Assembly: GCF_029227915.1 (NCBI RefSeq)
Contig: NC_079881.1
Span: 18,949,501-19,013,500 of the forward strand
Direction of reading: 5' to 3'
Length of the DNA: 64,000 nt
Origin: Hydractinia symbiolongicarpus
Taxonomy: Eukaryota > Cnidaria > Hydrozoa > Anthoathecata > Hydractiniidae
Part shown: piece by piece, positions 21,901 to 57,567 of the stretch
Layout of the letters: every line of letters starts with the position of its first letter
Numbering within the stretch: the first letter of the stretch is position 1
Translations under genes and position numbers: made by a program
Notes under the pieces: generated by a model
Database searches by the model: none
The model's input: only the letters and a program-made list of their open reading frames with translations
What the model was told of the DNA's origin: nothing

Positions 21901-24900
21901 TTGTTTTTTCAAACGTAAAAAACAGCTTGTAAATTCAATAGTTAAGTATAATATATTCAAGGAGGTTGTTGCATTTTGTTTTAAATGATGTCTGGCTTAT
22001 ATTATTAATAATAACAACAAATCAATAAAATTTGCATGTAACGTACAAGACCTACTGCCAAATAACTATGGGAATTTAATATTTAAATACCGCAGATTAT
22101 TTGATAAGTATTTTACGTTACAGATGTATGATAATCATAGTAATATCTCTCTACACCATTATTAGAATTACACTGAGTTGGAGATGAAAGATGAAAAGTT
22201 GTTTTGGGTGTCTTTCCAGTGAGTTTTTTTTGGTTATCAAGCTTGTACTGTCATCTAATTGTTCTCTTAATTTTAATTTCATTATTTTTGTTTTGTTTCA
22301 GAAATTTAAAAGATGTTCCTGAAGATGTAGTAGTGAAAATAATACGCCATGTAGGAAAGAAAATTTTGGATATTTTTTCTGGAAAGGTAAATAAAGATAA
22401 ATGATTTTCATTACAGAATTATCAATCTAGAAATTCGTTTTTCAAAATTAGTTAAGATAAATTGTTATGTGTATAATATTGTTTCTGTAAATTATATAAT
22501 CTCATAAGGCTGAAAAGGCTGAAAAGTCCATGGAAATCGTTATCAATAAAAGTGACTTCGCTGTTAACACTGATATCAGCGGTGTATGTGTTTATTACAG
22601 GATTTGAAGTTGTATTCAATGAATTTTGAAAGTCAATTGCCCTCTTTTTAATATTTTTTGCACTCTATTTAGGACTGCATGATTTGCACTGAAAAGTGTC
22701 GCAACTTGCAAAGATGTCAATTCGAATTTTGTGCAGACGGGGATATACTTTATTGTGTTCTATGTTTTAATGGGCATGTATGTAGGCAGACATATGGACA
22801 GGTACAATTCTTATAATTTATTTATTAAGGAAAATAAATTTTGCATTACTATTCAGAAATGTGGAAGATAATGAAATTTTTCAACCTATGATATACAAAA
22901 ATATTTCCATACTACATATAAAGGAAAACGATCTGTTATAGTTACATTTAACATTTAGATGACTTTTATTTTGTTAGCAGTGTCTTTCTGACGATGAACC
23001 AATTACAGAAGAGACTCCTTTGAGAAGTACTGATAACCAGGTAGAGTTTATTATTTTATTATTTATGTTTCCCAAATGAATGTGTATTATAACCAAAACG
23101 CATTTTTAGTCTGTATGTGCAATGTGTGGTGAAGAAGGAATTACTATTCAGAAATGTGGCAGACAATCGTGTGCAGATAGTGATATCATTCTATGTGAGA
23201 AATGTCTAGATAAACATGTTTGCAAGAAAATCTTAAACAAGGTGAGAATAGTACATAGATCGAAAGTATAGATTTTACCTTGTCATTCAATGTTTGCGTT
23301 TTGTAAATTTCATTTTTGCTAATTTAGGTTGTTTGTGCAATATGTGGGGAACACAAATTTACTGTTCAAAAATGCGGCCGACGATCGTGTGCGGAGAGTG
23401 ATGTGGTTTTATGTACTTTATGCCTGGATAAACATGCTTGCACAAAGACAAGTGCTAAGGTAAGATTTTGCATGGAAACTATTTACAGGCAACTCAACAG
23501 AGATTTAGTATAACTGTTGACTAGCATTACGCTTCATTTAAAGCCCAAAGACATTTAGTTTTTCAATATACCCATCAAATCGTGCATTATCACTTTATTT
23601 TTATTAATTTCAGATATGTTGCTATTGTCAAAAGAGAAAACCTCCAGGTGAAATGGGCGAATGCAATGCGCTTTTGTGTGTTGCATACCAAAAATATTTT
23701 TGCGAAAAGTGTCTGGAATCTCATTTATGCCGCAAGAAGACTGTCCTAAGGAATGTGAAGGTACGAATATTTGTTTTCATATTTATCACTGCGATAACAA
23801 AATATTTAAAGATAACAATCTGATCTGCCATTATGTTTACCTCTGATTTTATTTGTATTTTTAGGTCTGTATTGGATGTAACAAGGAGGTGTTTGCAGAT
23901 AGATTTGATAAGTGTCGGCAAGTTCATTGTAAATTAAAGAATCAATTATTTTGCGCAGAATGTGTGGTAGAGCACGAATGTGAAATTAACCAGGTACACC
24001 TGCAATTTATATTTTGATTCAAAGCAAAAGCGATTTGCATAGCCATTTAAAGATGATTGAATAATGTCGATGCGAAATTTATAGTGTTCGTGATGATCAT
24101 AGAAAAGAGGCAAATTTTAATTAAGTTAAATAAAAGTCTTTAAGTATACGATATTTTCACTTTGTTTAGATTGAGGAGTCACCAGTCAAACTAAAACGTG
24201 ACCACAAAAGTGCACTTGAAAATAATGGGGTAATGACGCTAGCAAGCATTGGTCTGTAATATTTATTTTGTAGTATTCTAAAGAGGTAGAAATTAAACAA
24301 ATCAAGGAACAGGTTTCCCGTTTACTGGAACAAAACGATTTCAGGGCTATACAAGAGGTAAACATTTCATACATTATAAGACCTGGCGAGAGTAGGCTTA
24401 TAAAAGCACAAAATAATTCTCCAATTTAAACACTGTATTTTTATTCACGTGTTGTTAATGAATCCCTGTAAATTATATTTTTAGAGTCTTGAACGATTAG
24501 AGAAAGTGACTAACAATGAGAAAACCGATCTAAATTCGTAAGTATAATTCATGCGTTATTATAATTAATATCGAACATTTGATGAAGGGGTAGACTGAAA
24601 TATGCGATGGATAAGTTTCAAGAGACACTTCTATTATTGTGAAATTAAAATAAACGTATACTCATTTAGTGAAAAATCTAATAAGTAAATGGTGCAGACA
24701 TTTACTGCGTGTTAAATTTTGTGCTTGTCCAACTTTGTTAGCATACTGAAACTACTTTTATTCCTTTTAGAAAGCAAAAATTAACAAAACGACGACAAAT
24801 AAAGTGTCCCATTAAGTGTTGTTCGAAACCTGTCACAGACGTTTCCCGTCATTTGCGTGAAGTACACAAGTGGTGCCGAGAAAAGGCTGTTGGTGCCATG

Positions 24901-27500
24901 GAAAAGTTTGACTTAAGAAAGAAACACAATAACAACAAAGGGAAAAGAAAAATACATAACGCAGAAAGCAACAAAAAACTGCGTGATTACCATAAAAAAC
25001 GGTGGTGCCCCATTGGTTCCTGTGAAGCTGCAGTACTGAAATTGGACGAACACTTGCTCAAAGTGCATCACATACAGCGGGGCTCTGCAGAACAAAGGAG
25101 AGTTTTGAAATGTGCTCAAGTAAAGGTAAACTTGAAGGCTCAATCGCGAGTCAGTTCGAAGCCGAGGGTGGAAGAAGTCCAAGTAAAAAACACGAATGAA
25201 GTTATTAAACCGGTGTATAAACATAAAGAAGTTATGCACGATCGACAAAGCTCCAAAAGTTCGGAATCAGGTTCTTCTTCTGAATTTGAATCTGACACCG
25301 ATTCCGAATACCAGCCTCAACAAGAAAACGTCCAGTCCCAGCAAGCAGTTGACAAAATTACACAAAACCTTGTTGATCAGTTTTTTAAGTACATCATTTC
25401 AGCTGACGGAGGACAGAAGAACGAACAAGCATCAAAGCAAACAGCATCGCAGATCAAGAGAATGTATACTGTGATAAAGGCTTCATCTGTCAGTGACATG
25501 TTCCAACCGAGGCTTTTGAGAGACCATTTTTTGACAGAATATTGTAAGGAAATGAAATATGAAGCTGACACGGTTAAGAGATACTTGAGATCACTTGGCG
25601 ATTTCTGCGACTTCGTTATTGCAGAAGAGGTGGAAATTCCAAATTGTTCCTTAGAAAAGGTGTCAGTGATGAAAATGAAACTTTTGGCATGGTCGAAAAC
25701 CTACAAAAAGCAGTCAAAGCACAGATTCTGGGAACGACAAGAAGAGGATGAGATCATGATGGTTACTCCTCAGCAAATTTCCACCTATAAAACAAGTGAA
25801 CATAACAGGGCTGCCATTAAGCTGTTTGGTCAATACGCCAGCCCATACTGTCAAAATATGATAAACATGACAGATTTTTGCATAATGAGAGATTTCTTGT
25901 TTGTGGAGCTACATACTAGCACAGCCCAACGCTCTGGTGTTAGTGCAAACATGAAATTAAAAGAATTTGAAGCTGCACTTCAACAAGATGATGGTCGTTA
26001 TGTGATCAAAGTTAGAGATCACAAAACCTTTCACGTGTATGGGCATGCCATTGTGATACTAGAAAGACATGTGTTTGATTGGCTATCATTGTTCGTTAAT
26101 AAAATAGGCTCTCAAATTAGCGTTTGTTGTCCATATGTTTTTACATCATGGTCTGGTAAACATATGAGATCTGGTGCTATCAGTTGTCAGCTGCACAGTC
26201 TTTGGCTAAAGGCAGGCATTTATGCATTAACCGAAAGTTACCTAAAAATTTGAGTTGCACAATATTAAGAAAAAGTGCTAGCACTGGAATTCGAGAAGCG
26301 GAAACTGGTTTTTATGCTGAATCAGCTGCGGCAATGTCACATAGCATCCAAACTGCAGAAACGCACTATGTGAATCGTAAAAAATTAAATTAATCTAAGC
26401 AAGGTAAGTCCTTTATTTAAAGTTGTCCGTGAAGTTTGTACATTTGTGGTTACTAAACGCCATAACTATTAAAATCGCATTGTTAATGCCATTTTAATAG
26501 TTTTGGCGTGACAGGAGTATAAGCGTAGTTGGTTTTTGTTTGTTAACAAACAACAGAAGCATGAGAATGAAATTAGGTTTGCTTTTAAAGAGTAAAAATT
26601 TTTGCGATAAGAAATTTTCGAGGTTTCAAAACCAGCATATTGCCCCAATGTATTTTTATTTTTTTCGCGTTGTATTTCGTGGATTTAATTTCATTCATTG
26701 ACGTTTTTCCTTGTTTTTGTTGTTGTTTTTTGCGAATTGAAGGTTGTGCTTACTTTTTCTGACTTAATTTCGTGACTTCGGGAGAAATTCTGCAGAATGT
26801 CTGATAGTAGAAAATTTTACACAATATCTATAATTTGATTATTACATAGGTTGTAAAGTGGTTCGAGGGTATTTTCATGGAGAAGTGAACTCAAAGTATG
26901 GCGCAACTGCATCTCCAATTTTGAAATACGATACTAAGAGATCATGGACAACAGAAGAGGAAAGCATTTTAAAGTCTGCTTTCGCAGACAAAATTGTAGA
27001 ACGAAATGTTAAAATTGAAGACGTACGTCAGAGGTATTTCTCCTTGAACATTAAAGATGTGTCTGGGAAGCAGTTGTACGATAAAGTAAGAAATTAATCG
27101 GTAAAGAACAGACTGATATTGTGGAATCTGAGCACCTTGACGATGACTCTAAATCACAAGAGGTATGAAATATTTATAGTGTTTTACGAATGTCATCACA
27201 ATATGCATAAAAACCGACTTGATGATTTACTCTCTTTATTATGTGTAGACCAATTTAGCAGCGTCTCAGTCATCTGTCGTTGCATCCAGCAATATTGCCC
27301 GACGAAGAATGTTTTCAGAAGAAGAAATCGAGAAAATTCGTCAGCGATGTGGCCACATAATCAAAAGTGGGCCAAAGACGGATGATCTCATTAAAATGGC
27401 CTTAGATGGCTCTATGCTTCTTCAAAAATACACACTTGTACAGTTAAGAACGAGGATTAATTACGAAGCGTCCAAAAGAAAAAGCATTTGCCGGATGTAA
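18956..27500 (+). CDS. A2 locus: multi-exon SET / Cys-rich / C2H2 / tyrosine recombinase / SANT gene
   Basis: At least 15 exons join with consistent GT/AG borders and mostly matched phases. The predicted order is: basic N-terminus, SET8-like domain, linker, five Cys/His-rich modules each on its own exon, coiled-coil exons, two C2H2-like fingers, acidic stretch, type-A tyrosine recombinase, SANT-like exon, and a C-terminal exon with KYTLVQLRTRINYE. A SET methyltransferase and YR in one reading frame would put chromatin marking and DNA breakage/rejoining on one protein. That combined role is inference. Damage: tandem TGA-TAA in the SET exon (about 20518), a TGA soon after the SET exon, a frameshift near 26217 in the YR, and indels in the SANT exon. 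Either a decaying gene or base errors. B2 begins 260 bp downstream on the same strand. Confidence 0.6.
19450..21003 (+). pseudogene. A2 SET8-like SET-domain exons
   Basis: Exon 19450-19558 (SQRKRVKVNF... HWIDDVIG, phase 1 before GTAAGC) joins exon 20481-20631 (GYGVFAVKDFEK then TGA TAA, then LLEYSGEHI... YLFFFKDI) and exon 20732-20915 (C-INATFDNRLGKYVNDSPY ... SSGIELRYSYGVPGLPWRK). The same splice point (G|GCTATGG) is used in A1, confirming homology. Compared with A1, the two stops sit where Gly-Asp is expected. The NHS motif is NDS, as in A1, and YDYG is YSYG. The next exon (from about 20991) hits TGA after DPK. These changes make catalytic activity unlikely. Confidence 0.7.
21155..22577 (+). 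CDS. A2 linker exons (partly uncertain)
   Basis: Small candidate exons: 21155-21197 (NKDESISNEDTIQK); one ending 21475 before GTAACT (DQIDFQLKERITCRDG ... SLNFTFK) with uncertain start near 21302; and 21507-21563 (EKDWLQKNPNLCDANKTAL). Exons 22166-22218 (NYTELEMKDEKLFWVSF) and 22302-22386 (NLKDVPEDVVVKIIRHVGKK) join in phase 2. A Lys/Glu-rich exon (AEKAEKSMEIVINK) starts near 22510. Borders of the last two phase-matched exons are good; the phase between 21197 and 21302 does not match, so an exon is missed or one call is wrong. No known domain. Confidence 0.45.
22673..23993 (+). CDS. A2 Cys/His-rich zinc-binding modules, one per exon (five)
   Basis: Five exons of near-equal size, all phase 0, encode repeats of one module: 22673-22801, 23110-23241, 23328-23459, 23614-23760 and 23865-23993 (43-49 codons each). 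Pattern: CxxC, then KC, then SC/FC, then LCxxC, then HxC; for example VCAICGEHKFTVQKCGRRSC followed by LCTLCLDKHAC. A 20-codon exon without cysteines (22981-23040) follows the first. Eight regularly spaced Cys/His suggest two metal sites per module, resembling RING/B-box-like folds, but I cannot assign a named family. All five are open and free of stops, unlike the SET exons. Symmetric phase-0 exons would allow gain and loss of modules without frame change. A1 shows no counterpart. Confidence 0.75.
24170..24537 (+). CDS. A2 charged/coiled-coil exons
   Basis: Exons 24170-24229 (IEESPVKLKRDHKSALENNG), 24274-24357 (YSKEVEIKQIKEQVSRLLEQ...) and 24485-24537 (SLERLEKVTNNEKTDLNS, phase 2) all have AG/GT borders. 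The Glu/Lys/Leu content suggests a coiled coil that could mediate dimerisation, which is inferred only from composition. The last exon joins 24771 in frame. Confidence 0.65.
24771..26403 (+). CDS. A2 zinc-finger and tyrosine-recombinase exon (one frameshift)
   Basis: Long exon after TTTTAG, ending at GTAAGT (26404). The frame carries two fingers (CPIKCCSKPVTDVSRHLREV at about 24808; CPIGSCEAAVLKLDEHLLKV at about 25008), then a Ser/Glu/Asp-rich stretch (ESGSSSEFESDTDSEYQPQ), a helical core-binding domain and the type-A YR. YR residues visible: Arg in AQRSGVSANM, Lys in RDHKT, Arg in ILRKSAST, His in MSHSIQTAE, Tyr in THYVNRKK. A one-base loss near 26217 shifts the frame (LKAGI to LCINRKLPKNLS), so 24853-26253 and 26184-26393 are two parts of one domain. 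Fold and catalytic set match Crypton-like YRs; no reverse transcriptase lies nearby, which argues against DIRS or Ngaro. Confidence 0.75.
26850..27500 (+). CDS. A2 SANT-like exon and C-terminal exon
   Basis: Exon 26850-27162 (after ATAG, before GTATGA) encodes VVKWF, then shifts frame to a SANT/Myb-like block (SWTTEEESILKSAFADKIVE ... GKQLYDKV), then shifts again into VESEHLDDDSKSQE. The final exon 27249-27500 (after TGTGTAG) contains RRMFSEEEIEKIRQRCGHII and KYTLVQLRTRINYE, ending at TAA 27498-27500. The same last motif occurs in A1 (9600-9660) and B1 (near 16125-16165), so it is a family signature. Its function is unknown; being basic and helical, it could bind DNA. Confidence 0.65.
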
Positions 27501-29261: not shown

Positions 29262-31559
29262 ATGACGCCTACGCACATGATAAGATATGGTCGGTCACAA
29301 TTTGTACAGGGTCTTATCAAGCAGGTTGAGAATACTTCCCAAAAAGAAAGATCAAAGCCAACAAAGCGTTTTGCGCAGAATGTGAGAGACTACCTAATTA
29401 CTTAACTGTGCATTATGAACGGGCTTAGAGCATCAAACATAATAGAATTAAGATTAACAGATGTTCAGGAAGCTCACACCGACCCAGAGTATCCAGGATA
29501 TATGGTTTTTACCAATTCGCGGTACAAGACTTCTACAATTTATGGTGAAAAAGTAATTGTGTTACCTAAAAATATTTTTAGCTATTTAAAGTATTATGTC
29601 GATCATCTTAGGGATGTATTAAGTCCAACAACGGAAACATATTTGTTTATTGCATCAGATGCCGATCAAATATCGCACGCTGTCATTGGAAGTAGTTTGA
29701 CATCTTCCTTTAAAAATGCATCTGCTTTTAAGAAGAATGAATATGGAAGGGTTTGTCCAACTAGAATAAGATGTGATGCTACATTTGGTTGCAAAGTAGA
29801 TGGCATAGATAGTGGATATTTTGCCAAACACTTTATGAAGAACAAGGAAGATACCACAAATATCCACTACAACCTTTATTCCAACCACAGAGAAGCGCTG
29901 AAATTGGCAATGATGATGGGGAACACTTTTGAAGTGGGGGACATCACAAAAGTCCTTAAAACTGAAGATATTGAAAAAATCACCACTGAGATATACAAAA
30001 ATGAAAAGAAAATACCATCAAAGGATGACGTTATAAAGTGGGCCAATAACAACAACGCTCTTGAACCAAAAGAATTGGCTGATTTTCTTGAGATACTGGG
30101 AGAAGTTGAAGTTGGGACTGAAAAACTTAAAAAATTCTATGGAGAAAATGAAGCAAAGCAAAAAAATGTGAGTTCATATGATTGCTGCTGTTATTAGAAT
30201 TATAACTTCATAGAGTATGCACCTTGTGAATCCATGTTCTCCTGTATCATGTTTTCTTCTTTCTCCTGTAACGAGATGCTTTTTCCCTCTTCTTGTGCTA
30301 TTTCTATTTTCTGATGTTATAAATTTTTATATCTCTATAATAATGACGTCTGCCCATCTGTGAGTCGGAATGGTGGCTGGTGGTTAATGCTTATTTATTT
30401 TGTTACACTTTTTTACTAAGTACAAAAGTTATTTTATGGGGAAAATATTAAAGTTATAATTTATCCGTCGTAAAATCATGGTAAAAAACATGGGAATTAA
30501 TCTATCTAAAAATCCACGTTAATTCACCCTTTGCTAGTCGTAGCTACCATCTCTGGCTTACAGACGGACGGCGTTATATACATTTGCATTTTTTCATCTA
30601 GGTTGAGGTTGCACCTGTCAAAACATACTCACTGCGTGAAGGTACAAAAAGCGATAAACAGCAGGTATATATAAAAAAATTAATAAAACTTGTGCCGTAA
30701 ATGCTTATTTTAGTAATTAGGATGAGCACATGCGCATCATTTCGTATTGAAGTCCTAAACCTGGTGTATTTTAAGATATAGGAAATTACGCTGGATTAAC
30801 ATGTTTCTAGAATGACTTTTATACTGGTCATATGCATTTAGCTTAACATTATCATGCATGCTATATGCTGTTGTACTCTTTTTTTCCTATTTTAGAATAA
30901 ACCTTTATCGGATTCCGAAGATGAAAGTGATTTCAACAGTGACAGTTCTGCGGAAAGTATGTACTCCGACACTTCGGACGAGGTTTTAAACACAACAGAA
31001 AAAACAACTGGTTCTTTTGTGAGGTCAGATGAAATGGTAATATATATAGCGTTTTACGTTGCTTAATTATAATGTTATGTGAAATTTCCAAACCAAATTT
31101 TTCACAGGTTTAAGCACATTTTTTACTGGGTTTAATAGTTCGTAGAAAATTTAAAAAAAAATGCTAAGAATGAAATTAAGGGATTAATAGGAGGAATAAT
31201 GAATGTTTTAATTTTAGATATTTAGTGAAAAATATGCTGAGACCAAACGAGAAGACCTGGTTAAAGGAAGAAAACATGATAGGCGTATATTTCTTGCCCT
31301 TACGTATGCGTGTGAGGAACTTATAAAACGTGCAGATTACGATAATGCGTTTAGCACAAGAAGTTTTACTGCAAAGGAAGTTAAGCCGTGTATTCAAAAA
31401 CATGAAAGAATACGAGAAATGTGTAAAATGAACGACTCGGATTATTGGAAATATCTGGTTTTAAATATGCGCGAAAAGTATCAAACTGAAATGGCAAGGG
31501 AGAATTTTTCTAAGTGTCGGATGTGGCTTGAAGAAGCACAAAACATGGTTGCTGAATAA
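29262..31559 (+). pseudogene. B2 locus, 3' part: type-B tyrosine recombinase and C-terminal exons
   Basis: A frame open from MTPTHMIRYGRSQFVQG (29262) runs into VRDYLIT, a TAA (29403-29405), then LCIMNGLRASNIIELRLTDV and the rest of the YR to a splice donor at 30168 (GTGAGT). Catalytic-type residues: Arg in GLRASN, Lys in SRYKTSTIYG, Arg in TRIRCDATFG, and Tyr in NKEDTTNIHYNLYSNH. Further exons: 30602-30664 (VEVAPVKTYSLREG...), 30896-31036 (acidic, SDSEDESDFNSDSSAESMYS) and 31218-31559 (helical, ends AQNMVAE-TAA). The TAA aligns with a Lys codon in B1, so one AAA-to-TAA change would explain it. The C-terminal exon differs from the tail of A1/A2/B1. An upstream deletion plus the stop suggest a recent pseudogene. 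Confidence 0.7.
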
Positions 31560-36864: not shown

Positions 36865-37385
36865 TTTTAACTGAGGTAATAAGTGAAGTCGTTACTCTCC
36901 AAAGACAAGATCATGTGTGATCAAACCCCCCTGCTAATATTTTTTTATTATTATTTTTTATTTATTTTTTTTTTTTTTAACTGGGGTAATAAGTGGAGTC
37001 GTCACTCTCCAAAGACAAGACCTAGTATGATCAAACCCCCTCATTACGGTTAAAATATTCTTATCTCAGCTCTTCTAAAAAGAAAACATATGACTCGTGA
37101 CTGTTAATAAGGCGGTCATCACAGAAAATTACTGCTCTATCGTTGCAATGCATCCACCTGTGTACCATTTGGTCAAAGGCTATGGTTGTGTAGTGACCAT
37201 TATTTAAGTTGCCGCAATGGTTGATAATAGCCCTTAATTGAAAATTTTTACGAAATTTCACTTCTCCATCTACGGTTAAAGGTATGGAAAGGGTACCAGG
37301 GTAAGCAGTAATACGAGAGGCAATTTTTGACACAAGGCCGTTGGCACTGGCAAAACGTTTTAGCTGTAAAATCAGATGGGAACCG
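36865..37385 (-). mobile_element. 5'-truncated copy of USP-bearing non-LTR retrotransposon (minus)
   Basis: The minus-strand frame 37385-37061 encodes the end of a USP domain: LILQLKRFASANG, then INHCGNLNNGHYTTIAFD and WMHCNDRAV, ending SYVFFLEELR-stop. These are the His box and Asp of the C19 peptidase, equivalent to GHYWAY and WYHCNDRAV in the full-length copy at 50536-54801. Downstream on the minus strand is the family 3' UTR signature (TTGTCTTTGG near CCCCAGTT), present twice (about 36979-37041 and 36865-36930). The copy begins inside the RPA-like ORF that follows, so it inserted into the Helentron. It is diverged from the full-length element and clearly 5'-truncated. Confidence 0.7.
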
Positions 37386-47527: not shown

Positions 47528-49228
47528 GTTCTTTTAGGTCGAGCAGTCATAATCCTCTAGCTGTTCAGGTTTCCGCCTGACTCGTTTTGGTGTCTCAAAA
47601 TCCCCAGGCATAGCTTCAACTTTTGGCGTGCACGGCGCTACAGCATTAGTTTCAACGACTTCCGGTTGTCTGGACCGTTGTTGCGGTGGTACTATTTCAT
47701 CGCGTAATGTACTTGTTTGGGTACTTTTTTTGTACTTTGTTGTTGCAATATTTGTATTGTCCAGAGGGTTGCTTTTTCAATTAACTTGGTTGTACAGACC
47801 ATCCTTGTAAAAGGGAGATCTTGCTTTGCATAGAGATCTTTAGAGGATTTAAACTCTGCCACTTAAAATAAGAGTCATTAGACTAGTCGAATCACTACAG
47901 CTTGCTGTTTTGTTATCTCATAATCTGGTTGTGGTATCACCACAGGATCTAAGATATTCTCGCCGCTGTCGCTCCTATTCCTGATTTGATCAATGTGACG
48001 GTGGTGTATTTTGTTGCCTGCATGTATGTGGTAGAAAACGGGTCCTGATTTTGCTTCGATTACTTCTTGCACCCATTTCGAATCTGTACGGTTATGACTC
48101 CTCATCCACACCTCATGTCCGACTGAAAAGGACCAGGAGGGAGCATTTCCAGTGAGATTATTTTCTTGTTTTGCACTCAATCGCCTCTAGAGATTTGGTT
48201 TGATGAGACTCAACTTTGTAGTCAACTTCCGGTTCATTAAAAGTTCCGCCGGAGACATCTCGTTTGCTGTTTGTGGCGTTGTTCTATGCCCGAAAAGGAA
48301 CCTGTTCACTCTTGTTTAAATGGAATCGACAGATGGAGAACTACTCATCTTCTTCCTTGCACTTTTGAAGGATTGAACTGTTCGTTCTGCACTACCTTTT
48401 GTTGACGGATTGTATGGAGCGCTTGTGATGTGCCGAATGCCACAGTTCTTCATGAATATGTCAAACTCGCTGCTTGTAAAACTTGGCCCCTTATCAGTTC
48501 CACACATCTGGCGTAGACCATGGGTGGCGAAGGCGATCCTCAGACATTCTATTGTTGCCTTTAACCCGTAGTTGTTGGGACTCAATCGGATAGGCCTCAA
48601 TCCATTTGGAAAATGTGTCGACTGGAACCAGAATTACCTTTCCGAGAAAAAGTCCGGCAAAGTCTAAATGAAACCTTGTCCATGGTTGATGTTTTGGTGT
48701 TCTTGGCAGGGTTGACATCCTTTAACACTTTCCTTGATATCCCGATCCATGTTGGGCCAACAAATGTAGCTGCGGGCCAACGCCTTCATTCAACAGATCC
48801 AACATGCAATTCTTCCAAAATGTTGGATTGCGGAGCTGCTGGCACTACTACTCGGTTGCCACACAACACACATCCATCCTCGACTGACAGTTCGTTCTGA
48901 CGAATTTTGTAGGGTTTCCACTGATCCAGGGCCGTCATGTGTTCTGGCCATCCATTGCATACAAAGTCGAGCACCCTTTCAAGCACAGGATCTCTTCTGG
49001 TGTCTTTCTGTACTTCATGTGCTGTAACAGGAAAATGTACAAGTTCGGTGAGCATCACTTCACTTTTTGCTCCTGAGGATTCCTCTGAAGGCAGGAAAGA
49101 CGATGCATGCAATCCGCGTTTGCATTTAACTCTCCGCTACGATATCTCAATTCATAATTATATCCTCACAACAGCAAAACCCACCTCTGAATACTAGAAT
49201 TTCAATTTGTGGACTTTGCTTGGAGTGG
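47528..49228 (-). pseudogene. Ty3/Gypsy-like pol: RNase H remnant, integrase, C-terminus
   Basis: Minus strand, in order: remnant of RNase H end (GYNYELRYRSGELNANADCM near 49130-49170), a linker frame 49112-48786, the integrase zinc region (SYICWPNMDRDIKESVKGCQ then PCQEH), and the catalytic core (HLDFAGLFLGKVILVPVDTF; RQMCGTDKGPSFTSSEF; APYNPSTKGSAERTVQSF, giving D, D, E). The C-terminal frame is 48180-47933 (SFSVGHEVWMRSHN ... ILDPVVIPQPD). After the insertion at 47739-47932 the end of the frame is near 47540. Most of RNase H is deleted near 49228. Frameshifts between segments make the element dead. Confidence 0.75.
47739..47932 (+). mobile_element. Short 3'-end copy of the 56537-57567 retroelement
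   Basis: About 190 bp nearly identical to 57380-57567 (shared TAGACTAGTCGAATCACTAC and GGGTTGCTTTTTCAATTAAC). It interrupts the minus-strand Gypsy frame between PVVIPQPD and TLRDEIVPPQQ. Both copies end at the same 3' point (CTCATAATC), which fits independent 5'-truncated insertions of one non-LTR family. Confidence 0.7.
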
Positions 49229-49234
49229 GTAATT

Positions 49235-49714
49235 TTAGAATCGATCTAATTTTGACTTGACTGGAGTGTCACTTCTACTGTTGATCATGAATCCTAAGTA
49301 TATCACCTCGCTCACCATGAAAGAACACTTTTCTTTCTTTAATCTTAGTCCGCAATTTTTGATTACTGTTTCTCTTAGATTTGCCAACAAGTCTGATTGA
49401 CTTGTTCCTGCAAGCAGGAAATCCTCTACTCTAACCGTAAGGCGCGGTATGTGTCCTAATTTCTTCTCCATCTCCTGTTGGAACATGTCTAATGCCGAGT
49501 GTATGCCATACTGCAATCTGGTCGGTTGATATAATCCCTTGTGTGTATTTACGGTTAAGTATTCCCTTGACCCTTTGTCCAACTTCAATTGTTGATATGC
49601 ATGACTGAGGTCTAGCTTGCAAAACAGTTTTCCCCCGTTTAGCATAGCCAGCAGATCTTCAGTTTTCGACACAAGATAGCTGTCAAGGTCAGCGGCCTGG
49701 TTGACTGCTAACTT
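49235..49714 (-). pseudogene. Gypsy-like reverse transcriptase (C-terminal part)
   Basis: The minus frame gives AVNQAADLDSYLVSKTEDLL, GGKLFCKLDLSHAYQQLKL (first catalytic Asp), YQPTRLQYGIHSALDMFQQE, RVEDFLLAGTSQSDLLANLR and KKEKCSFMVSEVIYLGFMIN. The usual xxDD box is VED here, with the first Asp replaced by Glu. It resumes the Gypsy protein interrupted at 55555 by the non-LTR insertion, and is truncated before RNase H. Confidence 0.8.
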
Positions 49715-50187
49715 GGTCTTCAGGCTTGACAACCCTGCTGTCCTTAGTCAAAATATGTACAGGCTGGTCCTGTCATGACAACCTCCTGTGTAAGGCTGAG
49801 TGTTGGGGCCCTGTAACACATGTGGAAAGCTACAGCCAGAGTCACAAGTTCTGGCGCACAGGAGGGTTTTATATAATTCTTTTTTTTATATTATATATTT
49901 TTGACATATACATTTTTTCCATTTGTGTTTGTTCTGTAACCAGTCCGTTTATGTTGTTAGATCTGTCTTGTGTCGTATTGTTTGTGATTGAAGGATTGTT
50001 TTTTCTCTTTAAGATTTTCTCAGTGAATAGTTATAGGTCCAAGTTGGACAGTACTCATGCTTGTAATAAGCAAGAAAGTGTATTCAGCACCTTCTTCTGG
50101 GAGCCTAATCCCAATTTTATTTACATCCACCGTCCCTGTAGACAAGATACTTCAGTGCAGCTTGCTGTATTGTAAACCTTTTTCATC
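49715..50187 (+). mobile_element. 5'-truncated 3' end of the USP non-LTR element, adjacent to the full copy
   Basis: Essentially identical to 55082-55554, the 3' end of the full-length element, including AGGCTGGTCCTGTCATGACA. The left junction shows a 7-bp match, CTAACTT, between the Gypsy target and the retroelement sequence, as expected for a microhomology-joined truncated insertion. The full-length copy follows directly, so the pair can look like long terminal repeats but is better read as a head-to-tail double insertion. Confidence 0.7.
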
Positions 50188-50535
50188 TTATTGTTGACCG
50201 CAATGGTTTCAACCTGACACTGGGAAAGACTAGTGACACTGGGAAAGACTAGGGACACTGGGAGAGACTAGTGACACTGGGAAAGACCGGTAAACTGTTT
50301 GCAACTGGATCGACATGACCGTTTTAAAGGACTCGATTGTGTATACTGATTTTGATTTTATTATAACCGGACCCTAATCCACGGTACGCGTCAACGGATG
50401 AATGGCTAATGGGTTAATTAGTCGCTAGCGAATCCTCACAGTCTTGGTGCCGCTGTGAAAACTATAGCCTTACCCTGTGCGCCAGGCAACGCAGGGCTGA
50501 CAATCTTATCCTGTGCATAATCAACCCCTATAGTT
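50188..50535 (+). mobile_element. 5' region of the USP non-LTR element with 19-bp tandem repeat
   Basis: Four copies of a 19-bp unit (GACACTGGGAAAGACTAGT) at 50216-50290 precede the ORF. Short 5' repeats are common in promoters of non-LTR elements. An in-frame TAA at 50518-50520 shows the ORF does not extend further upstream in this copy. Confidence 0.6.
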
Positions 50536-53500
50536 ATGACTTCTTTTATACCCAACTTCGAAAAGAATCATTGCAATAAACAAAATGATACAGTACTCCA
50601 AAAGCACTTGATGAAAAGCTGTAAAGTTGTTTTGGAGGATGTTTGTTCTCTCAGTGGTGCTGAAAAGCTTAAGATCACAATCTCTACTTCGATTTCATCC
50701 CACAAAAGTAAATTGTGTCACACGGAAAAAAACAAACTTCAGAACCTCGATGAGAAAGCCCCCATTATATGGGGTAAGATGAATGATAAGCGTTGGAGTG
50801 ACTTAGACAGTGCTGTGCATAGCAAGCTAAAGGCTTGTACCAATCTATCCATTTCTGAGAAAGTTAAAACACTCGAAACTTTAATTTACGAAGAGGCTTC
50901 AAAAATATTTGGTTGCCGCTCCTCAAATAAAACAAAAAACATTGCCAGTATTAACAGGCGTACAATACGTTCCATTAATCTGGTTAAGGAGAAAAATGTT
51001 CTGTTAGCGCAGATTGCCTCATCAACCATCAAGGAGGAACTAACTGCCTTGCAAGAACTGTTGCAACAAGTTCGAATAAAAATAAGGGTGATGCGTCGAG
51101 GTGAGAAACGAAGAAGAAGAAAGTGGAGCTTTAAGAACGCTCAAAAGGTTTTTAGGAATGATCCCTACAAAGCAGGAAAGGACCTGCTTAACCCTAAATC
51201 AGATATTCGTCTTTGTGTTGAACAGTCTGTTCTGGACAACCATAAATTATCTAGCTTATCTGATAATTTTCACGACTCTTCTCTTCCCCTTCTTCCAGGT
51301 CTTCCACCACCTCCGCAGATCAAGAAAGCTTTCTCAGCCACATCTTTCAAATTTTCTGATTTCGCAAGTGTTTTATATACGCGTAGGAACGCCTCAGCTC
51401 CTGGGCTAAATGGCATATCTTACAAAGTGTACAAAAAATGTACGAAAATTTCATCCTTCTTGTTTAATGTATTTAAGTGTTGTTTAAAAAATTGTGTTGT
51501 GCCTCTTCAATGGCGTCATGCCAAAGAAATTTACATTCCCAAATCCAAAACTCCTGTACCATCTAACCTAAAAGATTTTCGACCTATAGCCCTCCTAAAT
51601 GTCGAAGGAAAATTATTTTTTAGTATTTTTTCAAGGCGACTAGAAACACATGTCATCCATAACAATAAGTTTATTAACACGTCTGTTCAAAAGGGGTGCA
51701 TGGCGAATGTTCCTGGCTGTTGGGAACACATGTCGTCAATCTGGGCAGCTTTAAAAGATGCACGCTCTGCAAGAACTGATCTTGCCACCATTTGGTTGGA
51801 TATCGCAAGTGCGTATCCCTCAATACCGCACAGATTAATCTTTTTTGCTTTGGAAAGGTATGGTATATCTCCTAGTTGGATTGCCATTGTAAAGGGTTAC
51901 TATTCTGGGCTGTACAGCAAATCATTCTCAAAATCTGCTCCAAGCAATTGGCACCAGCACTTCAGGGGCATCTTCGCTGGCTGCACCCTGTCTATCGTCT
52001 TGTTTTTATCAGGCATAAATGTTATTTTGGAGTATACGCTGGCAACATCTGTGTCATGCTACATCACCTCTAACAGAGTATCCTTACCTTTAATAAGGGC
52101 TTTTATGGACGACATAAACATCATGTCTTCTTCTGTTGCTGGAACACAAGTACTCCTTAACAGGTGCACCACAGCTCTAAGTTGGGCCAATATGACATTT
52201 CGCGCTGAAAAATCCCGTAGTTTTGTGATCATCAAGGGAAGATCTATCAATAGCACCCCTTTTAGTGTAAGTAGCCCTGAAAACGACATTGATTTCTCAC
52301 AGTATATCCCATCTATTCATGCCTCGCCAGTGCGATTTTTAGGCCGGATTATTGATTGTTCTATCTCAGACAGGAAGTCCATCAACGAATTGGAGGAAAA
52401 GCTGATAGAAGGGCTTCGTGTCATTAATAAGTCCTTATACACTGGAGCGCAAAAACTTTGGATCTTGCAACATCTTTTGATCCCGCGAATTCAGTGGCCA
52501 CTGTTAATATACGAGGTCTCGATGTCTGTTGCTGGGCGCCTAGAGCAAAAGGTTTCAGTGTTCATACGAAAATGGCTGAACTTACACCGTTCCATCACAA
52601 ACATTTCCCTATATGCTGACTCCTCTCCTTGCCCTCTGCCCATTAAGAGCCTCACTTCTATTTTAAAATCCGCAAAGATTAGCGGCCACCTACTTTTGCG
52701 TCACTCCAAAGATCCGATTCTGTCAACACTCGATCCATCTTTAAAGGCAGGTTCTTGGAAGGTGAGCGATGCAGTTAACATAGCTGAGGGTGAATTAAAG
52801 TACAAGACCATAAGGGGTCCTGTACAGCGTGGACGAACCGGTCTTGGCATTTGTAAAGTGGAAGTAATACCACCAAAAACCACTCACAAGTACAGAAAGT
52901 TAATCGCAAAAACATCGGCTGAGATTGACGAGGAAAGCTATCTATCTAAGGCACTGCAACTTCAGGTGCAGGGCCAATGGACAAGATGGGAGAACTACGT
53001 AAAGTTTGATCTTTCATGGAAGAACATCCTAGCAACTCCTCCTAATCTCTTATCTTTCTGCCTGCAATCCACTTACGATGTTCTGCCATCACCAAGTAAC
53101 CTAAGGAGGTGGAAAATAAATACAGAACCATCATGTTTCCTATGTCACAAAGAAATTTGCACTTCTGCTCACATTCTTGGTGCTTGTAAAACTGCTCTTT
53201 CCCAGGGTAGATATACCTTTAGACACGATTCTGTACTTACCCATTTGGTAGAAACTTTGAAAAAGTTCATTTTTGAGCTTCCTTCTGAACCTCCTAAAAA
53301 TTGTCAAAAAATAACCTTTCTGAGAGCCGGGTCAAAGGCACATACAAAATCTAAAGTGTCAGGTATACTGCACCTTACCAAAGATTGGAAGATTGTTGCT
53401 GACACACACTCGAACTATGTGTTTCCTAGCCATATTGCCATTTCTGAGCTTAAACCGGACCTTGTGTTATATTCAAATGACCTTAAGCGCGTTATTATTG

Positions 53501-54801
53501 TAGAACTCACTTGCCCATGTGAGGAAAACATGAATGCTTGGCACTCCACAAAAGTTGCCAAATATTCCTGTTTAATGAATGTGATTATGGTTAATGGCTG
53601 GCAAGTTGATTTCTTCGCAGTGGAAGTAGGAGCAAGAGGATATTGTGCAAGAACCACCACTGCCTGTTTAAAAAGAATGGGTTTCACCAACAAACTTGCT
53701 TATTCCACTGCAAATGATCTCGGTAAAATCAGTATGAGGTCTTCTTTTTGTATCTGGCTGGCACGTGAATCCAATGTTTGGTCAACTGACTCCTTAATGC
53801 AATTACCCAAATCCAAGCAGGCTTTGCCCATTGTGGAGACCAAGGGTGTTTCATCTCGCCGAAAGGGGCCATCTAAAAAGGTTAGCCAAAATAAAAATGA
53901 CACTCAACCAATTAGTGTCTATAAAAACATCGGTTTTTTAAACAAAGGCAACACTTGTTACGCCAACGCCATTTTGCAAGTATTAAGTACCATTCCAACA
54001 CTCTGGTGCCAGAGTGGGTCAGAATCGTTTCATTTATCACCTATTGCGAGGTCTATTTCGCTTAACATGGCGAAGCTGAAGCAATCATTGTCACCTGTTG
54101 ACCCTTCGAATTTTCTCTGGGCCCTTGAACGTCAAATGCACTCTGATGGGAAACTGGACTTCCAATTTAATACTCAGCAAGATGTAGCAGAGATTTTGTT
54201 TGTGGTTTTGGACGCCCTTAAGGGATTTTCCCCGATTGCTGCAGATAAAATCTCAACTGAAATCTCAATGTCCGTAAGCTGTAACACCTGCCTGTGCACC
54301 TCGGTAAATGTCGAAATGCAGGACATTTTAACACTGCCAATGACATCTAAAATCCAATCTTGTGTCAGCAAATTTTTAGAACCGGAAATTCTAACTGATG
54401 GAAACAAGTGGTTTTGTCCGCAATGCTTTGCACATAGAGAGAGTACTAGAGAAACGCAAATCAGCAGGAGTAGTGAAATCTTATTCCTGCATCTTAAAAG
54501 GTTTTTAAAACATGGTGAACATCTGGTAAAAGACAACAGAGTTGTTGAATGTGTTTCTATACGTGACTCTCTCCTGCAACTACCTCTCGTCAGTGATACG
54601 GACACAATGTTTAATCAGAACTACTCATTGTTAGCAACAATTAATCACTCCGGTACATTAACCGCAGGTCATTATTGGGCTTATGTTAAGGATCCTGCCA
54701 CAAATTCTTGGTACCACTGCAATGATAGAGCGGTTTGCAAATGCTCTCCACCTATTCTCAACAACAATTCATGTTATATTCTTTGTTACGTTCGCTGTTG
54801 A
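50536..54801 (+). CDS. Non-LTR retrotransposon polyprotein: RT + restriction-like endonuclease + ubiquitin-specific protease
   Basis: An uninterrupted 1421-codon ORF from ATG 50536. Residues about 1-280: charged N-terminal region. About 285-620: reverse transcriptase (NASAPGLNGISYKVYKKC; DFRPIALLNVEGKLFFSIF; TIWLDIASAYPSIPH; FRAFMDDINIMS-like FMDD at about 523-526). About 860-900: CCHC-like zinc site and RHDSVL. About 970-1050: restriction-like endonuclease (ELKPDLV with D975, VELTCPCEEN, VAKYS, VEVGARG). About 1127-1420: USP/C19 domain with Cys box GFLNKGNTCYANAILQVL (C1141), CxxC pairs (SCNTC; WFCPQC), QLKRF-like HLKRF, His box GTLTAGHYWAYVKD (H1379) and WYHCNDRAV. All key residues of the three enzymes appear present. 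R2/NeSL-like elements share the RT/endonuclease layout; some carry other cysteine proteases. The intact frame suggests recent activity. N-terminal DNA-binding fingers of that group were not seen. Confidence 0.9.
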   Translation: MTSFIPNFEKNHCNKQNDTVLQKHLMKSCKVVLEDVCSLSGAEKLKITISTSISSHKSKLCHTEKNKLQNLDEKAPIIWGKMNDKRWSDLDSAVHSKLKACTNLSISEKVKTLETLIYEEASKIFGCRSSNKTKNIASINRRTIRSINLVKEKNVLLAQIASSTIKEELTALQELLQQVRIKIRVMRRGEKRRRRKWSFKNAQKVFRNDPYKAGKDLLNPKSDIRLCVEQSVLDNHKLSSLSDNFHDSSLPLLPGLPPPPQIKKAFSATSFKFSDFASVLYTRRNASAPGLNGISYKVYKKCTKISSFLFNVFKCCLKNCVVPLQWRHAKEIYIPKSKTPVPSNLKDFRPIALLNVEGKLFFSIFSRRLETHVIHNNKFINTSVQKGCMANVPGCWEHMSSIWAALKDARSARTDLATIWLDIASAYPSIPHRLIFFALERYGISPSWIAIVKGYYSGLYSKSFSKSAPSNWHQHFRGIFAGCTLSIVLFLSGINVILEYTLATSVSCYITSNRVSLPLIRAFMDDINIMSSSVAGTQVLLNRCTTALSWANMTFRAEKSRSFVIIKGRSINSTPFSVSSPENDIDFSQYIPSIHASPVRFLGRIIDCSISDRKSINELEEKLIEGLRVINKSLYTGAQKLWILQHLLIPRIQWPLLIYEVSMSVAGRLEQKVSVFIRKWLNLHRSITNISLYADSSPCPLPIKSLTSILKSAKISGHLLLRHSKDPILSTLDPSLKAGSWKVSDAVNIAEGELKYKTIRGPVQRGRTGLGICKVEVIPPKTTHKYRKLIAKTSAEIDEESYLSKALQLQVQGQWTRWENYVKFDLSWKNILATPPNLLSFCLQSTYDVLPSPSNLRRWKINTEPSCFLCHKEICTSAHILGACKTALSQGRYTFRHDSVLTHLVETLKKFIFELPSEPPKNCQKITFLRAGSKAHTKSKVSGILHLTKDWKIVADTHSNYVFPSHIAISELKPDLVLYSNDLKRVIIVELTCPCEENMNAWHSTKVAKYSCLMNVIMVNGWQVDFFAVEVGARGYCARTTTACLKRMGFTNKLAYSTANDLGKISMRSSFCIWLARESNVWSTDSLMQLPKSKQALPIVETKGVSSRRKGPSKKVSQNKNDTQPISVYKNIGFLNKGNTCYANAILQVLSTIPTLWCQSGSESFHLSPIARSISLNMAKLKQSLSPVDPSNFLWALERQMHSDGKLDFQFNTQQDVAEILFVVLDALKGFSPIAADKISTEISMSVSCNTCLCTSVNVEMQDILTLPMTSKIQSCVSKFLEPEILTDGNKWFCPQCFAHRESTRETQISRSSEILFLHLKRFLKHGEHLVKDNRVVECVSIRDSLLQLPLVSDTDTMFNQNYSLLATINHSGTLTAGHYWAYVKDPATNSWYHCNDRAVCKCSPPILNNNSCYILCYVRC

Positions 54802-55554
54802 TCCGCTTTTTCTTTCTTTCTTATACATTTATCATTACGTTTATAAAACCTGTACTTCCAGGGTCATGGGGGAGGAAAATGTAAATCCGAGCGGTTTTAT
54901 ATTACCCCAGCTAGTTCATTCGAACCAGTTTGCCGTCAATACCCAGAGGGTAAAGAGTTCAGCTCACTCTTCTCTGGTAACTTAAAAGAAGCTTAGCAAG
55001 GGGGTTTGCTTTCAGCTTGTCTTTGGGTGTAACGACCCCACTTTTTACCCCAGTTCAGTAAGGTGCCCAAGTTTACTAACTTGGTCTTCAGGCTTGACAA
55101 CCCTGCTGTCCTTAGTCAAAATATGTACAGGCTGGTCCTGTCATGACAACCTCCTGTGTAAGGCTGAGTGTTGGGGCCCTGTAACACATGTGGAAAGCTA
55201 CAGCCAGAGTCACAAGTTCTGGCGCACAGGAGGGTTTTATATAATTCTTTTTTTTATATTATATATTTTTGACATATACATTTTTTCCATTTGTGTTTGT
55301 TCTGTAACCAGTCCGTTTATGTTGTTAGATCTGTCTTGTGTCGTATTGTTTGTGATTGAAGGATTGTTTTTTCTCTTTAAGATTTTCTCAGTGAATAGTT
55401 ATAGGTCCAAGTTGGACAGTACTCATGCTTGTAATAAGCAAGAAAGTGTATTCAGCACCTTCTTCTGGGAGCCTAATCCCAATTTTATTTACATCCACCG
55501 TCCCTGTAGACAAGATACTTCAGTGCAGCTTGCTGTATTGTAAACCTTTTTCAT
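54802..55554 (+). mobile_element. 3' UTR of the USP non-LTR element
   Basis: Contains GCGGTTTTATATTACCCC, TAGCAAGGGGGTTT, CTTGTCTTTGGGTGTAACGA and GTAAGGCTGAGTGTTGGGG. All recur in diverged form in the copy at 56970-57290, and in part on the minus strand at 36865-37060. The end (CAGCTTGCTGTATTGTAAAC then CTTTTTCATC) abuts Gypsy sequence at 55555. No poly-A tail is visible, in line with some site-selective endonuclease-bearing elements. Confidence 0.75.
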
Positions 55555-55992
55555 CCACAAATTCTTACTGTCCCGTTGTCCTTTGGAACCGGAACGATGG
55601 GTGCGGCCCACTTTAAATATGCGACCTGTTGAGAAACCCATTTTTGACGAGTCTGTCTAGTTCCTTACTTTATCTTTGTGAGCATAAGGAACGGTGCGAG
55701 CTCTGAAGAATCTGGGCTTCGCCTCAGGGAAAACTGGAATATGCACAAGGGTGTCCTTTAATGTTCCTAATTCAGGCTTGAATACCTCCTGGAATTCTGA
55801 TAACAACGCATCTAGGTTCCGTCCCCTTCTTTTGGGAGATATTTCAGTGAATGCAAACCTTAAGAGGATTCCAGGGCCTCCGGATGACCACTTAGTGGAC
55901 CTTGGACTAGAAGTGCCCTGCCTGGAATCCTGACACCACTTGGTTGAGGCTTTGGGGCGAAACCGTTTGGTGTCAAGGTTGGGATTGTGCAT
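55555..55992 (-). pseudogene. Gypsy-like pol, protease-RT junction
   Basis: The minus frame reads FQEVFKPELGTLKDTLVHIP, FPEAKPRFFRARTVPYAHKD, then after a shift KWAAPIVPVPKDNGTVRICG, the N-terminal RT block of Ty3/Gypsy-like elements. It is cut at 55555 by the non-LTR insertion and continues at 49714 (AVNQAADLDS). Distance between the two halves equals the inserted double retroelement. Confidence 0.75.
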
Positions 55993-56086
55993 TTTTTTTG
56001 TGTGTGTTTTTTTGTGTGTGTGTGTGTTTCTTTCACTGTTTAAGTGTCTTATTGGCAGTAACTTTGGAGGAACACAACCTCTATGA
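55993..56086. repeat. (GT)n-rich junction between Gypsy and DIRS fragments
   Basis: GT/T-rich microsatellite-like run at about 55998-56035. It separates Gypsy and DIRS-like coding pieces. Confidence 0.6.
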
Positions 56087-56511
56087 TTTAACCCTAAAGC
56101 TTAACAGGTTGAGTATTTCATTGTGCCGTGCTGCAATGTTTAAAATTTTCTTTGAAATGGTTGTAGGGTACAAATTTGTTGAGTTACTGAGCGATTTCCT
56201 CCATCTTTTTTTCCCCACGAGGAAAAGATTGCTTATAAACTGTCCTGCTACAGAACCTACTTTTGTGATGGCTGCTTTTCTCAACATTTCCATCACTTCT
56301 CTATCTACCATGCTTTTTTCTTGTTGAGTCAATGTCGGGGGATTTCGTAACCCAAGACTATTGACAACAGAATTTTGTCCTGAGTTAGTCTTCTCCAGGC
56401 TAGAAGAAAATGTATTATACGCCCAGCCAGAGGGGCCTTTGGAATTTTTAGACTTAAAAATGATTTAGAATTACCTGATGAACCCGAGTGAGGTCCTCCG
56501 AGTTTACCCAA
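56087..56511 (-). pseudogene. DIRS-like reverse transcriptase N-terminal fragment
   Basis: The minus strand shows PLAGRIIHFLLAWRRLTQDK and LSIVLGYEIP, then LTQQEKSMVDREVMEMLRKA, AITKVGSVAGQFISNLFLVG-KK. This order (hairpin of W-LTQD, GYEIP, MLxKGAI-like, FISNLFLV.KK) is typical of the start of the DIRS RT. The frame then decays. It lies on the same strand as the gag-like block at 57568-58420 and is separated from it by a retroelement insertion. Confidence 0.6.
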
Positions 56512-56536
56512 TTCCCTTGTTACAGGTTCAATTAAT

Positions 56537-57567
56537 TTTTTTTTGCAGCCCGAAAATTTGTCTGGAAATGACAGGTGGCTTTGCCCGCAGTGCTCTTCTT
56601 ATCAAGACAGTACAAGCGAAACGGTTTTCACCCAGTGTGGAGACATTCTAATTATCCAACTGAAGAGGTTTACGTTTCTTGATGGAAGAACCCTAAAAAA
56701 TAACAAATTTGTTACCTGCCTTGCTTCAAATGACGACATTTTTTAGAGTTCGCTCTCAGCCAACGGATGACATATCATTTAACAACAAATATTCGTTAGC
56801 TGCCACTATCATTCGGGCACCCTAGGAGCAGGTCACTATTGGGCATTCATTAAAGATCGCAGCCGTGGCTCATGGTTAAGATGTGACGATAAAGCAGTTG
56901 TTAGAGTTGCACCATCCGATTTAAATAACTCTTCTGTGTATGTGTTGTTTTATGTGAAAATGTAATAATTGTCTGATTAACATTCACATAAAAGGGGGAG
57001 GGTTATCTTTCCCTAGCGGTTTTATATTACCCCGGCTGTTTCTGTCACAAGCATTCTACCGTGAACCTAGAGTTTGCTGACTCTTCACTCTCTTATAGAG
57101 TAATCATAACAAGCATAGCAAGGGGGTTCAACTATGTCTTGTCTTTGGTGCGACGACCCCAGGCTGGTCCTGACCAACGCTGGTCCAAAGCATCAATCAC
57201 CTGTGTAAGGCTGAGTGTTGGGATCCCGTAACACGTGTAAAGCCACAGCCAGGTTCACAAGTCCTGACGCATAGGTAGTTGTTTGCCCCCTTTATATAGT
57301 TTTCATTTATTTGTTTCATGTATTTTTCATTTACATATATATACGTTTTGTGTCAATATATGTTGTTGTTTTTTGTTTTGTTGTTGCAATATTTGTATAG
57401 TCCAGAGGGTTGCTTTTTCAATTAACTTGGTTCTACAGACCATCCTTGTAAAAGGGAGATCTTGTTTTGTATAGAGATCTTTGGAGGGTTTAACCTCTAC
57501 CACTTAAAATAAGAGTCATTAGACTAGTCGAATCACTACAGCTTGCTGTTTTGTTATCTCATAATCA
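56537..57567 (+). mobile_element. Sister-family 5'-truncated USP non-LTR copy
   Basis: Begins inside the USP domain: LSGNDRWLCPQCSSYQDSTS, ILIIQLKRFTFLDGRTLKNN (frame 56543-56746). After frameshifts near 56750-56810 it continues HSGTLGAGHYWAFIKDRSRG, CDDKAVVRV and SSVYVLFYVKM-stop near 56966. The 3' UTR shares the signature words of the full-length element, but the protein and UTR differ enough to be a separate family. Its 3' end (57380-57567) is repeated at 47739-47932. It inserted between DIRS-like gag and RT. The Cys-box half is missing, so the protease fragment is inactive. Confidence 0.8.

Follow-up and report, generated by a model that had tools for sequence, protein, structure and literature searches.

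A ubiquitin-specific protease domain fused to an R2-like retrotransposon protein in Hydractinia symbiolongicarpus

A retrotransposon protein bearing a complete ubiquitin-specific protease (USP) behind its reverse transcriptase (RT) and restriction-like endonuclease (RLE) is encoded in the hydrozoan Hydractinia symbiolongicarpus, within a stretch of 64,000 nucleotides (assembly GCF_029227915.1, contig NC_079881.1, positions 18,949,501 to 19,013,500), hereafter the window. The protein is read from a single open reading frame (ORF) of 1421 codons, in the order N-terminal region, RT, CCHC knuckle, RLE, linker and USP (Table 1), and a USP downstream of the RLE was found in 65 of 95 aligned proteins, the window protein included. 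The frame runs from ATG to stop at exactly 50536-54801 of the forward strand. An initial annotation, made from the sequence alone, had read it at these positions and had recognized all four domains in it; each of them was recovered, with the key residues placed at the codon level.

Pfam searches of the full protein gave an RVT_1 match (E = 8.1e-16), and a codon check located the catalytic Asp triad of the RT at D422, D525 and D526, the latter two within the FMDD motif; a zf-RVT match was weak and below its cut-off. The four residues of the CCHC site (C867-X2-C870-X8-H879-X4-C884) are invariant across 27 aligned members, and the PD-(D/E)xK endonuclease is represented by P974 and D975, E990 and K1006-X2-K-Y1010. 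The UCH family matched residues 1132-1418 over its whole model with 112 bits against a cut-off of 24 (E = 3.8e-32), a strong profile match that bears out the proposed USP, and all hallmarks of peptidase C19 are present, namely the Cys box, the His box, the Asp and two CxxC pairs. AlphaFold likewise predicted the USP part with a local distance difference test score (pLDDT) mostly above 90, and the fold of the predicted model was confirmed by structure matches to cellular USPs. In the linker the pLDDT fell below 50 at model residues 189-228 (protein residues 1088-1127).

The wider family was obtained by a protein search that returned 98 relatives, of which P0096-P0099 (three RT-less USP proteins and one APE-type RT according to their Pfam lists) were excluded, leaving an alignment of the window protein (P0001) and 94 relatives. 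All 65 proteins with a USP downstream of the RLE, defined by coverage of at least 230 of 288 USP columns, reach the RLE, whose D-E-K residues are intact in 64 and replaced by D-G-K in P0085; 58 also reach the DD of the RT, and the remaining seven begin downstream of it. Over aligned residues, the 64 USP-bearing relatives share 36-61% identity with the window protein. A locus of the same species, LOC130629774 (P0004), matches 55% of the query at 97% identity, and two further proteins labelled H. symbiolongicarpus (P0050 and P0071) are 46-47% identical. An assembly join confined to one copy, which the annotation had named as a possible refutation, is excluded by the presence of the fusion in relatives, and two relics of USP-bearing elements also lie in the window. 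After removal of P0079, which ends before the His box, realignment of 64 complete USP domains (the window's own included) left 10 of 296 columns invariant: G1133, C1141, D1216, C1249, C1252, C1294, C1297, H1371, H1379 and D1397. Since the pLDDT is high and every catalytic and zinc-binding residue is kept in 64 of 64 homologues, the USP match is not a product of chance.

Mean pairwise identity among the 47 full-length rows declines from 57% in the RT to 46% in the CCHC-RLE part, 32% in the USP and 14% in the linker (residues 1086-1128), whose length varies between 40 and 316 residues. With 32% mean identity and yet ten invariant columns that include the triad and the zinc site, the USP is, as judged from the alignment, a fast-evolving domain with an active site that is not. 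RT-RLE and USP distances co-vary strongly, with r = 0.889 in the 47 rows and r = 0.754 in 29 rows less than 65% identical to one another (none of 2000 permutations reached the observed value in either set), and therefore the USP has long travelled with its RT. A search with the USP alone, limited by its need for common short words, retrieved 21 proteins, all of which the RT family already included, and no cellular USP. In a third protein search, no Ulp1 or OTU appeared in the Pfam lists of the best 120 of 238 matches (the 7994 best candidates were scored), among which Paramuricea clavata was the only named organism. Profile scans of viral contigs and prokaryote genome contigs yielded 7 and 23 pattern matches, none confirmed as a relative, which is weak evidence of absence given that each scan relied on just two short patterns.

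Some members deserve separate mention. P0033 and P0066 are RT-USP proteins filed under Pseudomonadales metagenome bins; they are probably eukaryotic contamination, because no such locus was confirmed in species-level prokaryote genomes. P0039, P0040, P0049 and P0057 (1861-2151 aa) match the window protein only from their own residues 551, 415, 411 and 623, respectively, and thus have long N-terminal extensions; in P0039 and P0040 the linkers between RLE and USP span 275-278 residues.

Of the 95 rows, 70 were placed on an RT-RLE tree; 48 of these had a USP (at least 190 of 288 USP columns covered), 4 a USP fragment and 18 none. Three of the USP-less rows (P0050, P0058 and P0070) are nested within USP clades and may have been cut short. 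Six others (P0067, P0072 and P0074-P0077) form a clade adjoining the USP lineages, their proteins stopping soon after the RLE and bearing one or two N-terminal C2H2 patterns, and the nine further USP-less rows are outer branches. Among 36 scanned long USP-bearing rows, an N-terminal finger was present only in the basal P0065, which thus combines a finger with a C-terminal USP. In this part of the tree the likely order would be fingers without a USP, then both, then a USP without fingers; the case for fingers as the ancestral state is weakened by the outer branches, where a finger pattern occurs in P0081 and none in the other eight rows. In a USP tree of 23 element and 3 cellular domains, the cellular USPs grouped together (100/97), many inner forks were weak, and the USP of P0065 scored 162 bits against the element profile, close to the 156 and 154 bits of two of the cellular USPs (110 bits for the third); a single origin of all element USPs is therefore not established. 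On the RT-RLE tree, forcing 22 USP rows together against 10 others was mildly rejected (approximately unbiased test, p = 0.033), the group having been named after the trees were viewed. This history would be described by a single acquisition, later lost from the zinc-finger clade, or by two acquisitions. In a midpoint-rooted tree, with just two named references, the two R2 sequences split from the other RLE rows, beside the long-branched P0098.

The element matches the R2 group of RLE-type non-LTR retrotransposons in its RT with the Asp triad, in a pre-RLE CCHC knuckle that obeys the CX2-3CX7-8HX4C rule, in an RLE with PD, E and a displaced K in KX2KY (both rules from PMC5678591) and, in the predicted model, in the RT-linker-RLE fold. 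Structure alignments with R2Tg and R2Bm gave 16-20% identity. However, R2 proper has one or more N-terminal zinc fingers and a Myb domain, neither of which was detected in the window protein (Pfam to E = 1; no N-terminal C2H2 pattern), inserts in 28S ribosomal DNA rather than in a Ty3/gypsy-like pol gene as here, and has no C-terminal USP. Rfam matched no family in the 64-kb window, which therefore offers no 28S or U2 context; Utopia, by contrast, inserts in the U2 small nuclear RNA gene. NeSL carries an N-terminal Ulp1, whereas the window protein has no Ulp1 family match and has its UCH domain at the C terminus. Thus, of the R2/NeSL-like grade suggested initially, the R2-like RLE character holds, and the defining features of R2, NeSL and Utopia tested in this copy do not.

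The joining of ubiquitin or SUMO proteases to mobile-element proteins has precedents. An Ulp1 protease is carried by NeSL and Utopia-1_TSP (PMC4640811), which share with the present element the pairing of an RLE element with such a cysteine protease, but theirs is Ulp1-like and N-terminal and here a C19 USP is C-terminal. Ginger1 DNA transposons may have a C-terminal OTU or Ulp1, and a Trichomonas vaginalis protein joining transposase_11 to a C19 domain is mentioned in the same source (PMC2836005); the latter even shares the C19 family, but both are DNA transposases without RT. The Prp8 RT-linker-RLE core is related to RLE-type long interspersed nuclear elements (LINEs) (PMC5678591). Spliceosome chains, presumably Prp8, matched the model of the element from E = 6e-9. 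The C-terminal ubiquitin-binding domain of Prp8 is Jab1/MPN rather than a USP, and no membership is implied. An OTU is found in Dualen-type elements. Cellular USP2, USP8, USP15 and USP36 share the catalytic domain, the fold and the zinc fingers, whereas the element's USP is compact (about 290 residues), fused to RT-RLE and 20-30% identical to them in structure alignments. The annotation knew of no C19 USP in such elements. For retrotransposons this agrees with the literature search, which found no report, Repbase Reports and most subscription journals lying outside its scope; it does not hold for mobile elements at large, in view of the Trichomonas transposase. Within the searched literature, then, the fusion of a USP to an RLE retrotransposon is unreported, and protease fusions of mobile elements (Ulp1, OTU and one C19 transposase) are already known. 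According to the Hydractinia genome paper, LINEs make up 4% of each genome; the word 'ubiquitin' is absent from its main text (PMC11067881).

Sequence and models together establish the architecture, the intact triad and zinc site, the fold and the long co-inheritance with the RT. We infer from them an active enzyme, with ubiquitin as its modifier and the element's own ribonucleoprotein (RNP) as its substrate, and the favoured reading, given about an even chance of being right, is that deubiquitination in cis would protect this RNP from proteasomal destruction. RT and RLE would perform target-primed reverse transcription as in R2, as family knowledge and the fold suggest, with the USP riding on the same polypeptide within the RNP; it would deubiquitinate the RT protein of the element or proteins bound to it, so that destruction would be delayed and the RNP might last long enough to insert. 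Since there is no conserved ubiquitin-like cleavage site between RT and USP, the latter is probably never released, a point in favour of action in cis. In mammals, ubiquitination by TRIM41 leads to the degradation of LINE-1 ORF2p (PMC10716122), and TEX19.1, probably through UBR2, has the same effect on LINE-1 ORF1p (PMC5570191); by analogy, a built-in deubiquitinase would counter such restriction directly. Somewhat more tentatively, the family may be an old and diverse retrotransposon clade that uses its own deubiquitinase against ubiquitin-based restriction, the USP having been gained by a zinc-finger RLE ancestor and the fingers then lost. Several points weigh against protection of the RNP. 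The LINE-1 precedents are mammalian, and restriction by ubiquitin in hydrozoans rests on analogy; the six-row USP-less zinc-finger clade beside the USP clade implies that the wider group can do without a USP; and action on DNA-repair or chromatin substrates would explain its conservation equally well.

Such action is the main rival. At the insertion site the USP might deubiquitinate chromatin or DNA-repair proteins of the host, such as histones, PCNA or FANCD2, and so help second-strand synthesis along or dampen the response to DNA damage; this is less likely than protection of the RNP but well ahead of the readings that follow. It is improbable that the domain targets another ubiquitin-like modifier such as FUBI: its fold matches do include USP36 with FUBI and USP18 with ISG15, but its closest sequence matches are USP8, USP15 and USP2, and D1216, the ubiquitin-binding aspartate of the QQD box, is invariant. 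Still less probable is a role in maturing the polyprotein by cleavage. Self-encoded proteases that cut polyproteins are common in elements and viruses, but the linker is variable in length and sequence, Gly-Gly occurs in it in 5 of 47 full-length members, and no RGG was found anywhere in these 47 proteins. Of the roles first suggested, deubiquitination of the element's protein or of host factors consequently fits best, and processing is not supported. A USP without function, captured passively from a host gene or created by an assembly join, can be dismissed, being refuted, as far as sequence can do so, by the recurrence of the USP behind the RLE, the conservation of its active site and its co-inheritance with the RT.

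If the USP does serve this clade as a counter-defence, it would be to retrotransposons what viral deubiquitinases are to viruses, one C-terminal module having changed the dealings with the host. Ubiquitin and SUMO proteases (Ulp1, OTU) are known from mobile elements; here a complete USP catalytic set stands on a clear RT-RLE and has evidently been kept by selection in dozens of lineages, and the relatives without a USP provide natural controls. The question why transposons carry deubiquitinases thus becomes directly testable, and the family hints at ubiquitin-based restriction of retrotransposons beyond mammals.

The full unit (50188-55555), whose 5' untranslated region (UTR) contains a 19-bp tandem repeat at 50215-50287, is preceded head to tail by a partial copy, and the pair is inserted in a Ty3/gypsy-like RT gene of the opposite strand. 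The perfect repeats and the intact frame suggest, on the sequence, a recent insertion. The full unit is one copy, its reading frame intact, of an R2-like lineage of RLE-type elements. The partial copy starts with CTAACTT, which is also present in the gypsy reading frame (KLA, other strand), and because this motif matches both, the 5' truncation point looks like microhomology. The partial dimer could have arisen by template jumping, or from a read-through dimer transcript that was reverse transcribed and then truncated at the 5' end; two successive insertions are less likely because the identity of the repeats is perfect. About 8 target bases seem to be absent relative to the usual gypsy protein motif.

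Table 1. Positions of the element, its domains, its insertion site and related traces in the window
Feature	Position	Strand	Evidence or remarks
Single ORF, 1421 codons	50536..54801	+	ORF reading
Reverse transcriptase	51535..52347	+	residues 334-604; D422, FMDD 523-526; RVT_1 and R2 structures
CCHC knuckle CX2CX8HX4C	53134..53187	+	residues 867-884
RLE core	53455..53565	+	P974 D975, E990, KX2KY = KVAKY 1006-1010; aligned with R2 RLE
RLE-USP linker, largely disordered	53782..53931	+	residues 1083-1132
Ubiquitin-specific protease, peptidase C19	53929..54789	+	residues 1132-1418, Pfam UCH
Catalytic Cys1141 codon	53956..53958	+	invariant in 64/64 complete USP domains
USP finger zinc site C1249, C1252, C1294, C1297	54280..54426	+	all four invariant, 64/64
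Catalytic His1379 and Asp1397	54670..54726	+	invariant, 64/64
5'-truncated partial copy (last 480 nt of element 3' UTR), head to tail before full copy	49708..50187	+	100% identical to 55076-55555 over 480 bp
5' UTR of full copy, 348 nt	50188..50535	+	start inferred from dimer junction; end at ATG
3' UTR, 754 nt, no poly(A)	54802..55555	+	conserved block 55147-55230
Ty3/gypsy-like pol at host site, part upstream of insertion	55657..56100	-	ORF without Pfam match; nearest (right) flank of element pair ...WAAPIVPVPKDNGTVRIC
Ty3/gypsy-like RT at host site, part downstream of insertion	49235..49747	-	RVT_1 E = 3e-12; left flank of element pair KLAVNQAADLDSYL...
Relic of second, diverged element	56501..56959	+	USP residues 1266-1420, 37% identical, stop inside; tblastn E = 1e-28; open frame ends 56746
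Relic of further diverged USP element	37082..37375	-	residues 1316-1416, 36% identical; tblastn E = 9e-14

The 3' UTR block of the full copy has a counterpart at 57194-57275, with 83% identity over 84 columns, though the USPs of the two elements are only 37% identical, and this block may be a region recognized by the RT. It is predicted to fold into a closed multi-branched hairpin in both copies; the z-scores of -1.40 and -0.72 are too weak for a structured 3' UTR RNA to be claimed. For the final 116 nt of the full copy the z-score was -2.59, and for the corresponding stretch of the other copy -0.90. Element-like 3' ends at 57366-57566 and 47725-47925, 94% identical to each other, lie within this gypsy-like region, one on each side of the main copy. 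Elsewhere in the window, two ORFs at 24853-26253 (466 aa) and 29415-30197 (260 aa) had no Pfam match, and an 89-bp satellite occupies positions 3141-4719 in about 18 copies with a 94% match.

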